The translations under genes were made by a program, and so were the position numbers. The notes beneath the pieces are model-generated. The model worked only from the letters and a program-made list of their open reading frames with translations. It did not search any database and had not been told where the DNA came from. From assembly GCA_035516255.1 (NCBI GenBank), contig DATJAL010000025.1, positions 1 through 64,000 of the forward strand: a stretch of 64,000 bases of DNA, written 5' to 3'. Source of the DNA: Chitinivibrionales bacterium (GTDB lineage: Bacteria > Fibrobacterota > Chitinivibrionia > Chitinivibrionales > FEN-1185). Below are positions 6,880 through 63,707 of the stretch, piece by piece; positions within the stretch are counted from its first letter, which is position 1; every line of letters starts with the position of its first letter.

Positions 6880-7030
6880 GATGATTTCCTTTCGATGTTA
6901 TTCCGGATTTGCAAAGGTGATGTCTGATGGAATTCTCATGAAAGAAAATAAGGTTTCGTGATGTTCTTGTCAATCCAATCAAAACCTTTCCAAAACAATC
7001 CGGGCGTTCCCCTGCTTCGCAGGGTCGGCC

Positions 7031-7138
7031 GTCCTTCCGGTCTCGGGCAAGCCCTCGGGCTGCCACGGCCCCGATATGCCTGACGGCGAGGGCCGGGCAG
7101 CACCGCGCTCCAGCGCGGCCTCCAGTCCTGCCTAACGC
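7031..7138 (-). repeat. Structured dispersed element, copy 1
   Basis: Read on the minus strand: GTTAGGC, then GGACTGGAGG, hairpin CCGCGC-TGGA-GCGCGG (7103-7118), a second stem GCTGCC/GGCAGC (7059-7064 with 7096-7101), then hairpin GGGC-TT-GCCC (7045-7054) and CCGAGACCGG. Copies with the same layout but different stem bases lie at 63582-63707 and 61703-61795. Confidence 0.75.
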
Positions 7139-7152
7139 TTAGCATAAGTCAA

Positions 7153-7347
7153 CTATAATTTTTGTTTTTCCATCAGTGACGCAACAGCGCTCATCTCAGC
7201 CAAGAAATTTCTCCAGATGTAAGAACTGATAACAGTCTGGCCATACTTTTTGACTGAGGTGAAGTCTTTGGGAGCTTTCACGAAATGTAGTTGCTTGAGG
7301 AGAAAAGTCAAACTAGAGGATATAGTGCGGCACTGAAAAATCGTAGA
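7153..7347 (-). pseudogene. Possible decayed coding remnant
   Basis: A 64-codon open frame with no start codon at its beginning encodes a natural-looking helical tail (for example KAPKDFTSVKKYGQTVISSY, then IWRNFLAEMSAVASL) and stops at 7153. Its 5' end is cut by a stop at 7348-7350. I do not recognise the family. It may be the end of a gene disrupted when repeats accumulated here, or chance. Confidence 0.3.
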
Positions 7348-7467
7348 TCAACTTCCGCCGATATAATAATTTCTTCTTCCGCCGTGTAAACTACTTGCTG
7401 CAACTGGGGGATCGCCAGCCACCCGGGGTTTCCGTGTACCACAGAAGTATCGGCGCCAAAGAGGGGG

Positions 7468-7545
7468 TGTGGGTGCGGATCGCCGGCGCGCCTTCGGCTT
7501 TTTTTATTCTTGGGGCGCGCCGGAAGCCGCACCCCAGGGGGAGAC
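7468..7545. repeat. Long imperfect inverted repeat downstream of dnaJ
   Basis: Left arm GGGTGCGG-ATCG-CCGGCGCGCC pairs with a right arm whose reverse complement is GGGTGCGG-CTT-CCGGCGCGCC. The loop is T-rich. A second small hairpin (GGGGGAGACTTCCCCC) follows. It lies 50 bases past the dnaJ stop and could end the heat-shock transcript. Confidence 0.55.
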
Positions 7546-7596
7546 TTCCCCCTCAATAATTTCTTGCTTTATGGGAAAATATGGAAACAAAAGGAT

Positions 7597-24853: not shown

Positions 24854-24899
24854 GGTGCTGGCAGATATTTTCCGGATATGATCCGACACTTCATTTTAT

Positions 24900-24978
24900 T
24901 GTCACTCCCGCGAAAGCGGGAGTCCATCTTGCCCATCTCGGAATTTTAACATGGATTCCCGCTTTTGCGGGAATGACA
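24900..24978. repeat. Palindromic repeat with GTCACTCCCGCGAAAGCGGG arms
   Basis: Left arm 24900-24927 and right arm 24951-24978 are 28-base inverted copies with about 24 identical positions. Each arm is also internally palindromic (CCCGC-GAAA-GCGGG). This is a known kind of widespread intergenic repeat and could end convergent or leftward transcripts. Confidence 0.7.
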
Positions 24979-25028
24979 TTGATATATCGTACTTGTCAAT
25001 CTTCCACAATATATAACCAAATAAAATA

Positions 25029-61407: not shown

Positions 61408-61429
61408 CGGGGGAGAAGTATCTCCCCCG
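61408..61429. terminator. Hairpin behind the transporter genes
   Basis: CGGGGGAGA (61408-61416) with TCTCCCCCG (61421-61429), four-base loop. It lies 15 bases past the last permease stop. No T run follows, so termination strength is unclear. Confidence 0.6.
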
Positions 61430-61689
61430 GCCTCGGCCTCCTCGCCGCGCTACGCGCGTCTGCGGGGTCCTCGGCACTCCCCTCTCCTGGGTGCGGCCGG
61501 GTACCGACAGTGGCAAGCTTCACACATCCGCTGGGCGCACCCACGGACGGCGGCTGAATTGGAATTGTGTACTGCCGAGTTAATTGTTTGATGATTGCCG
61601 GTGGTTATAAGATAATGGAGCGATTATAATTGTATCCGTTTGGTACTGATTCCAGCACTTATTACATTTCAAAAAGAGGGGGAGGTTTC

Positions 61690-61821
61690 TTGCGCCAGGG
61701 GCGACTGGAGGGTGCGCCAAAGCGCATTGCCGGCCGACCCCGCCGATAGGCATCGGGGCGGACCGGCAACGAGGCCGAATGGCCGAGCCCGTAAGGAGAA
61801 CCGTTGCCGACTGGCAGGCGC
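61690..61821 (+). repeat. Structured dispersed element, copy 3, upstream of the corrinoid gene
   Basis: GACTGGAGG (61703-61711) followed by hairpin GTGCGC-CAAA-GCGCAT (61712-61727), stem TGCCGG/CCGGCA (61728-61733 with 61763-61768) containing an inner CCCCG/CGGGG, then GGCC-GAAT-GGCC (61773-61784), CCGAGCCCG, and an end hairpin TGCC-GACT-GGCA. GCGCC at 61692-61696 can pair with GGCGC at 61817-61821 to close the whole fold. It ends about 37 bases before the gene at 61859. Confidence 0.65.
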
Positions 61822-62529: not shown

Positions 62530-62670
62530 GGCCACAGAGGCACAGAGACACTGAGATTAATAATGTTTTAATGGTAACCTTCACAAATGTTTAATTGATG
62601 TTGAAGCAATAAGCATTCCCTATCAAACTCTCATTTTGCCTTCTCTGTGCCTCCGTGTCTCTGTGGCTAA
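62530..62670. repeat. Family C repeat with inverted GCCACAGAG ends
   Basis: GCCACAGAGGCACAGAGACA near 62530-62549 is an inverted copy of CTCTGTGCCTCCGTGTCTCTGTGGC near 62643-62667. It lies between the corrinoid and homocysteine-methyltransferase genes and touches the ribosome binding site of the latter. Confidence 0.6.
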
Positions 62671-62686: not shown

Positions 62687-63577
62687 ATGAAAACAATCGT
62701 CGAAACCGTCAAATCCGGTTCCATCCTCGTCTCCGACGGCGCATGGGGCACCTTTCTCCACAAGAAAGGGCTCGAGCCGGGCCAGTGCCCCGAGCTTTGG
62801 TGCATCACCCGGAAAAACGACGTGCTTGACATTGCGAAAAGCTACGCGGGCGCGGGCGCCGACATGATCGAATCGAACAGCTTCGGCGCCAACCGGTTCA
62901 AGCTCATTCATTACGGCCTCGAGGCACGCGCAAGGGAAATGAACCGCGCCGCTGCCGCGATCTCGCGCGAGGCAGCCGGTCCAAACCGGCACGTGATCGC
63001 GTCCGTCGGCCCCACGGGCAAGATCCTCATGATGGGCGACGTCACGGAAGAAGAAATCTACGGCGCGTTCAAGGAGCAGGCAGTTGCACTCGAGGAGGGC
63101 GGCGCCGACGCGTGCTGCATCGAGACCATGACCGCGCTCGACGAGGCGTGCATCGCGGTGAAGGCGGCCCGGGAGAACACGAGGCTCGAGGTCATCTGCA
63201 CGTTCACATTCGACAAGACCGTCGACAACACCTTTCGCACCATGATGGGCGTGTCGCCCGCCGAAATGGCGGCCGCGCTTGTCAAGGCCGGCGCGCACGT
63301 CATCGGCACGAACTGCGGCAACGGCATGGAGCGGATGGTCGAGATCGTGCGGGAAATCCGCGCTGCCGACAAGGCCACGCCCGTGCTCGTGCACGCGAAC
63401 GCCGGGCTGCCGCAGGCCAAGGACGGCCAGATCGTGTATCCCGAAACGCCGGAGATGATGGCGGGACTGGTGCCCGCGATTGTTTCCGCCGGCGCGAATA
63501 TCGTCGGCGGGTGTTGCGGGACGACGCCGGAGCATATAGCGAAAATTGTAGCGGCTGTAAAATCGATTAGAAAATAA
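62687..63577 (+). CDS. Homocysteine S-methyltransferase domain protein
   Basis: 296 residues starting at 62687 (GAGGAA upstream). The TIM barrel begins SILVSDGAWGTFLHKKG and carries zinc-binding cysteines in IGTNCGNG and IVGGCCGTTPEHI, the pattern of MetH/BHMT/MmuM enzymes that form methionine from homocysteine. It is short because it lacks the folate, cobalamin and activation domains of full MetH. With the corrinoid gene just upstream it may act as one half of a split, cobalamin-dependent methionine synthase. It ends four bases before structured element copy 2. Confidence 0.92.
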   Translation: MKTIVETVKSGSILVSDGAWGTFLHKKGLEPGQCPELWCITRKNDVLDIAKSYAGAGADMIESNSFGANRFKLIHYGLEARAREMNRAAAAISREAAGPNRHVIASVGPTGKILMMGDVTEEEIYGAFKEQAVALEEGGADACCIETMTALDEACIAVKAARENTRLEVICTFTFDKTVDNTFRTMMGVSPAEMAAALVKAGAHVIGTNCGNGMERMVEIVREIRAADKATPVLVHANAGLPQAKDGQIVYPETPEMMAGLVPAIVSAGANIVGGCCGTTPEHIAKIVAAVKSIRK

Positions 63578-63581
63578 TAAT

Positions 63582-63707
63582 GCGGTCTCGGCCATAGGCC
63601 TCGGGCCGCCACGGCACTATTTGCAGAGACGCACTGCCGTGCGTCTCTGCAAAAGGCGGGTCCGGGCGGCATCGTGTTCCAGCACGACCTCCAGTCCGGC
63701 CTAACGC
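63582..63707 (-). repeat. Structured dispersed element, copy 2
   Basis: Minus strand: GCGTTAGGCC, GGACTGGAGG, hairpin TCGTGC-TGGA-ACACGA (63672-63687), stem GCCGCC/GGCGGC (63605-63610 with 63665-63670), hairpin GGCC-TAT-GGCC (63590-63600), CCGAGACCGC. Its variable loop is occupied by a separate 15-bp palindrome (63620-63634 with 63639-63653, TTTGCAGAGACGCAC). Confidence 0.75.
63620..63653. repeat. Palindrome TTTGCAGAGACGCAC nested in copy 2
   Basis: A perfect 15-bp inverted repeat with a four-base loop (63620-63634 and 63639-63653). The AGACGCAC...GTGCGTCT type is a widespread intergenic palindrome; here it sits inside the variable stem-loop of another element. Confidence 0.75.

Follow-up and report, generated by a model that had tools for sequence, protein, structure and literature searches.

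The dispersed structured elements of the Chitinivibrionales genome studied here are, on balance, probably parts of a non-autonomous, mosaic mobile element (E3/E5) with ornate end modules that fold as single strands. At least three families of structured end module were found, i.e., E3, E5A, and E5B. In the proposed mechanism, two modules in any mixture would face each other across a variable, AT-rich middle to make up one mobile unit, a trans-acting enzyme would recognise the ends when folded, probably in the form of single-stranded DNA, and any solo copy would be the remnant of such a unit. E3/E5 may represent a novel type of miniature mobile DNA and, if this reading holds, the ends of mobile DNA can match structured RNAs in ornateness, which would point to an unrecognised enzyme.

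The window (the whole stretch of 64,000 nucleotides that was analysed) contains three related E3 copies, as a preliminary description had claimed from the letters alone. The covariance-model check that this description proposed was carried out with R1, a model built from 21 E3 copies (window copies 1 and 3 included) and an older pairing of the core, which recovered copy 1 at 7004–7138 on the minus strand (E = 1.4e-27), copy 3 at 61692–61821 on the plus strand (E = 1.2e-13), and copy 2 as a match to 63551–63707 on the minus strand (E = 1.2e-7), the final part of which is poorly paired. The extents given earlier nevertheless required correction. Copy 1, described as 7031–7138, is real and complete (S0, S4, core, H1, S2, H3, and H5) but runs 27 nt further, to 7004, and so takes in a final hairpin as well as AACGC, the strand that closes the element. 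Copy 3 is likewise real and complete, and belongs to type 2, with its start moved from 61690 to 61692; a single-sequence RNA fold of this copy recovers S0, the core, and S2. Copy 2, described at 63582–63707 (minus strand), is real as well but truncated, since its 3′ part (S4′, H5, and S0′) has been lost, and a 34-nt palindrome (63620–63653, read from the sequence) lies within its S2 apex loop. Palindromes within E3 hairpin loops, e.g., GCAGAGACGCAC..GTGCGTCTCTGC and GGGGCGGTTCGCGAACCGCCCC, were also seen at loci L035, L045, L055, and L065, as if other repeats could insert there and leave the fold intact. Two further intergenic inverted repeats, GGCCACAGAGGCACAGAGACAC..TCTCTGTGGC and GTCACTCCCGCGAAAGCGGGAGTCCA..TGGATTCCCGCTTTTGCGGGAATGACA, are located in the window at 62530–62668 and ~24895–24980.

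Both complete copies in the window have a partner module. At the first locus, the order is the stop codon of dnaJ (7597; gene assigned by Pfam), an E5A module at 7376–7552 (minus strand; nhmmer profile match of 140 bits, alignment A5) that starts shortly past this stop codon and faces E3, the middle, and E3 copy 1 at 7004–7138. Directly 5′ of this E3 copy, at 7139–7163 (minus strand), lies the H0 region TTGACTTATGC, read from the sequence, which is conserved in many copies, although its hairpin is weak in copy 1. At the second locus, the order is the stop codon of a permease gene, directly followed by an E5B module at ~61409–61575 (plus strand, facing E3; inner end approximate, with an nhmmer match at ~61467–61558 of 70.5 bits and the outer hairpin read from the sequence), the middle, E3 copy 3 at 61692–61821, and a gene for a B12-binding protein.

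A complete E3 is ~135 nt long, begins with GCGYYAG, and consists, from the outside inwards, of S0 (GCGTT/AACGC or GCGCC/GGCGC), S4 (GGC/GCC, GGT/ACC, GGTT/AACC, GTGC/GCAC, or GGCC/GGCC, by eye), the core (CU-GGA-GG/CC-GGA-AG), H1, S2 with its apex, H3, and H5, while many copies carry, by eye, the extra hairpin H0 immediately 5′ of E3. The compensating base changes that the preliminary description had read from three copies are borne out in alignment A7 (36 E3 copies, plain MAFFT), in which 90.8% of 1420 cells are paired and 23 of the 41 pairs show a double change. Specifically, 130 cells are doubly changed, compared with 39.1 ± 7.2 in shuffles (none of 500 as high) and at most 47 in slid controls, where kinship among copies may inflate the shuffle tests. 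Two larger alignments that were fitted to the model with its older core pairing, and are hence biased towards it, yielded 267 doubly changed cells vs. 78.6 ± 6.9 in shuffles (A3, 78 copies) and 328 vs. 122.9 ± 10.0 (A4, 90 distinct copies). The E3 fold is under selection.

RNAalifold applied unaided to A7 returned S0, the core, and parts of H1, S2, and H3, but neither S4 nor H5. It also showed the first core pairing, of CTGG with CCGG, to be wrong, and instead gave a symmetric internal loop flanked by a CU/AG and a GG/CC pairing. For A2, a mixed alignment of 21 of the 41 copies with both ends, it yielded 20 pairs, most of which are at odds with the E3 model. Among the 131 copies with both core words, pair 15/108 is T-A in 90, C-G in 30, C-A in seven, and T-G in four; GGA/GGA forms the internal loop in 75, and G-N-A occurs on both sides in at least 116, as counted over the twelve commonest variants. 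One S0 pair in A7 is U-A in 17 and C-G in another 17 of the 36 copies. In about a dozen copies (L001, L013, L018, L020, L048, L050, L051, L053, L065, and others), H3 is swapped for a longer GACGACGACCCTTG...GAAGGGGTGGACC, which looks like a single common insertion or a subfamily.

E3 is a dispersed family, as proposed earlier. The 4.28 Mb genome from which the window comes contains 103 occurrences of the word GACTGGAGG (56 forward, 47 reverse), compared with 17 of the same word read backwards; for a second core word, GAGNCCGNANGGA, the counts are 124 and 11. In the searched stretches, the R1 matches at E ≤ 0.01 comprise 164 distinct sequences (fragments included), i.e., 142 in this genome (G000) and 22 in that of a sister species (G001, MAG fen_1185, "Fibrobacteres"); two of these matches are cut by stretch ends, one of which (L114:1–84) repeats part of L081. 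Because only stretches were searched, the true E3 numbers are higher. Among 60 relatives, R1 yielded at least 56 matches in G000, at least 55 in G001, and two weak ones in G035, while blastn against 41 genomes yielded 21 in G000, 20 in G001, 14 in G003 (3′ part), and single matches in G020 and G035. A type 2 pattern run against 167 genomes of the phylum matched 12 times in G000, five times in G001, and once in G003, a tally that is an underestimate because most type 1 copies escape a pattern with type 2 spacing. A core pattern retrieved 63 stretches from GTDB representatives other than the window's genome, of which 17 belong to MAG fen_1185 and 46 to scattered taxa; R1 (E ≤ 0.1) matched 16 of the former, none of the latter, and neither of two viral contigs. 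The phage and plasmid collections searched held no E3 match either. Outside the two sister species, only weak cousins from the same order were thus found. A shorter cousin, seen at L071 and L076 of G003, which belongs to a different family within the order, retains S0, H3, and H5 as well as the core word CGAGCCCGGAA, whereas its middle differs. The literature searched held no description of such elements in Fibrobacterota.

A home-made codon-usage gene finder called 159 of the 164 E3 copies intergenic. As judged by this finder over both genomes, the gene 3′ of E3 is near (median of 29 nt for 81 antisense genes and 75 nt for 74 sense genes) and the gene 5′ of E3 is distant (median of 235.5 nt for 84 co-directional genes and 316 nt for 58 opposed genes). 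Within 600 nt upstream of E3, a partner module was detected in 60 of 163 regions and lacking in the other 103. In 56 of these 60 cases, the partner faces E3 across an AT-rich middle, the nearest partner being a facing E5A in 25, a facing E5B in 18, a facing E3 in 13, a tandem E3 in three, and an E5A facing away in one, with E3–E3 pairs counted from both sides.

E5A covaries independently: double changes affect 13 of its 38 predicted pairs among the 12 copies of alignment A5 (from 17 listed copies, the longer ones omitted), e.g., GGUG/CACC in six copies and CCCC/GGGG in six. An E5 pattern matched in 10 of 100 genomes, with 72 matches in G000 and 10 in G001; those in G003, G012, G104, G160, G161, and G051, and part of those in G162, are unlike E5 by eye. 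The outer ends of E3 and E5 share the short motif AAT-YTGG (read inwards) in AT-rich surroundings, as seen in 132 E3 flanks, 12 E5 flanks of G000, and 32 units. These 32 units measure 264–635 bp and show no target duplication, their longest direct repeat averaging 1.94 vs. 1.83 ± 0.26 in permuted pairs.

Comparison of the two sister species involved 14 stretch pairs with orthologous genes, six of which have orthologs on both sides; the other eight, with a one-sided ortholog or not clearly readable, were not used. At L052/L249 (also L081), E3 is conserved in place and sense next to an unalignable spacer; S2 shows compensating changes, H3 is longer, and H5 is different yet still pairs. E5B was found there in G001 only. 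At L025/L233, one gene is adjoined by E3 in both species and the other by E5A in G000 vs. E3 in G001. The same gene is adjoined by E3 in G000 and by E5B in G001 at L151/L222, E5B is present in both species at L147/L226, and the ends differ between the species at L179/L207. Finally, at L036/L279, one gap holds an E5A and E3 unit in G000 vs. 105 nt in all in G001, and another holds E3 in both, with extra sequence and one more gene in G001. From these six two-sided comparisons, it follows that modules are retained in some places, appear or disappear in others, and can be swapped.

Since RNA under selection would be expected to show more G.U than A.C mispairs, single-step mispairs at well-paired positions were compared. 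G.U (79) and A.C (67) did not differ (p = 0.36), a comparison that decayed copies may blur. This balance, together with the occurrence of E3 in both senses relative to its neighbours, lends no support to selection for RNA folding as such, one of two options raised in the preliminary description, whereas the other, a hairpin-recognising mobile element, gained support. In a raw tally of hairpins with at least four Watson–Crick pairs, 81 of 184 triloops were C(GNA)G, while 275 tetraloops included 19 GNRA, no UNCG, and 50 TGGA. According to passages of two reports, the d(GNA) triloop is a stable structure in DNA (PMC5815330) and caps the stems of Streptomyces telomeres (PMC7205883). Both strands of E3 fold under both parameter sets, the E3 strand slightly better in four of four comparisons, and a G.U pair is fixed in type 2 (25 of 36 copies in A7), which favours the E3 strand and would suit RNA too. 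The evidence on the polymer leans towards single-stranded DNA, without settling it.

In favour of mobility, we count the E3 covariation and the independent E5A covariation, the inward pairing in 56 of 60 cases, the common outer motif, the presence and absence of a unit at L036/L279, the end swaps at L025/L233 and L151/L222, the sense and antisense orientation of downstream genes (74 vs. 81), the intergenic location of 159 of 164 copies, and the C(GNA)G triloops. Against it, we count that no enzyme was found, none of 12 Y1_Tnp loci having an E3, that the 32 units gave no target-duplication signal, that 103 of 163 upstream regions lack a partner, that unaided RNAalifold omits S4 and H5, that type 2 has a fixed G.U, and that upstream genes are co-directional more often than opposed (84 vs. 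58). The conserved orthologous E3 with compensating changes at L052/L081 is also compatible with a local function or with gene conversion.

A cis-acting RNA role for E3 is the rival that we take most seriously, although we consider it rather unlikely. The modules would then be gene-boundary RNAs, transcribed and acting in place, e.g., as bidirectional terminators, as insulators, or by stabilising mRNA, and one could stand in for another by virtue of a shared function. Such a role would suit the location near gene ends (a median of 29 nt past the stop of an antisense gene), the strong RNA fold, and the E3 kept at an orthologous site, but sits poorly with E3 lying in both senses to genes, with the near balance of G.U and A.C, with the swaps and losses of modules between sister species, and with the conserved tail CCCAGATTTTT, which has no T run right after the last stem. 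If it were nevertheless true, a poorly studied phylum would harbour a large group of hitherto unknown gene-boundary RNAs; with so many copies in the two sister genomes, this and the mobile reading are both testable. Ordinary MITEs of a DDE transposase, with folds as a by-product of GC-rich inverted repeats, are improbable: the short common terminal motif, the AT-rich surroundings, and the AT-rich middle fit, while the missing target-duplication signal, covariation inside each end rather than between ends only, and single units with unrelated-looking ends do not. A retroposed structured RNA would account for a folded element with a T-rich 3′ flank, but is very improbable given no RVT_1 match in G000 (a genome 96.6% complete) and one in G001.

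Enzyme searches also bear on the mosaic mobile element. No R1 match at E ≤ 1 was obtained at 12 Y1_Tnp loci (including one of two in each of G000 and G001), and no E3 lies within the 1.5 kb flanks of the Y1_Tnp genes checked in these two genomes, G000 having two weak Y1_Tnp matches in all. A RAYT-driven REP reading was set aside, as no E3 accompanies the Y1_Tnp loci checked. A conventional REP system may nevertheless exist alongside E3, since a RAYT-like gene at L132 (G000:C16, near 70097) has a palindrome of its own, CCCGACCTTCAGGTCGGG, on its flanks. Integron attC sites and HEARO/omega-RNA remnants, both suggested in the preliminary description, are the least probable identities of all. GTTAGGC in GCGTT-type copies and the dispersed, structured nature of the elements had recommended them. 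An attC core reads RYYYAAC ... GTTRRRY, in that order; in E3, GTTAGGC comes first and AAC last, and attC is rejected because the GTT/AAC core covaries to GCC/GGC, many copies having GCGCC...GGCGC for GCGTT...AACGC. The Rfam scan of the window at gathering scores gave no match, and permissive scans gave nothing relevant around copy 1 (E ≤ 10) or copy 3 (E ≤ 5); HEARO (RF02033) was matched neither in the window nor in the genome, where the control genomes were silent too, and the TnpB domain PF07282 was found in none of four genomes, G000 and G001 included (controls positive in six of 14).

REP and attC, the bacterial folded mobile repeats compared here, have simple hairpins, REP being a 20–40-bp palindrome with a GTAG (or CGTC) tag at one end. 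E3/E5 resemble attC in their folding ends and the GTTAGGC of some E3 copies, and differ in a core that is not conserved, misordered half-sites, and the lack of a cassette array. With MITEs they share being small, non-coding, and dispersed, with a short common terminal motif, but their units show no target duplication and have covarying folds inside each end. Streptomyces telomeres also have several stem-loops capped by GNA triloops, as passages of PMC7205883 describe them, whereas E3 is internal and dispersed rather than at chromosome ends. REPINs appear in passages of PMC3116915 as inverted REP doublets, with hairpins predicted in single-stranded DNA or mRNA and with compensating changes, and what those passages and parts of PMC8266576 say of REPIN/BIME elements is paralleled in E3/E5: extragenic location, high copy number, doublets in inverted orientation around a spacer, a mosaic make-up from several types, and compensating changes. 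In contrast, E3/E5 ends are ~135–200 nt long with many helices, vs. REP palindromes of 20–40 bp, E3 has no GTAG tag, the end families are three and unlike each other, and no RAYT link was found. We would tentatively entertain, at odds clearly short of even, a new class of miniature mobile DNA, with interchangeable multibranched single-stranded DNA ends of unlike families, mobilised by an as yet unrecognised enzyme for which shape counts more than sequence. As a working likeness, REPIN/BIME would be the nearest known system, with E3/E5 set beside it rather than filed as a member.
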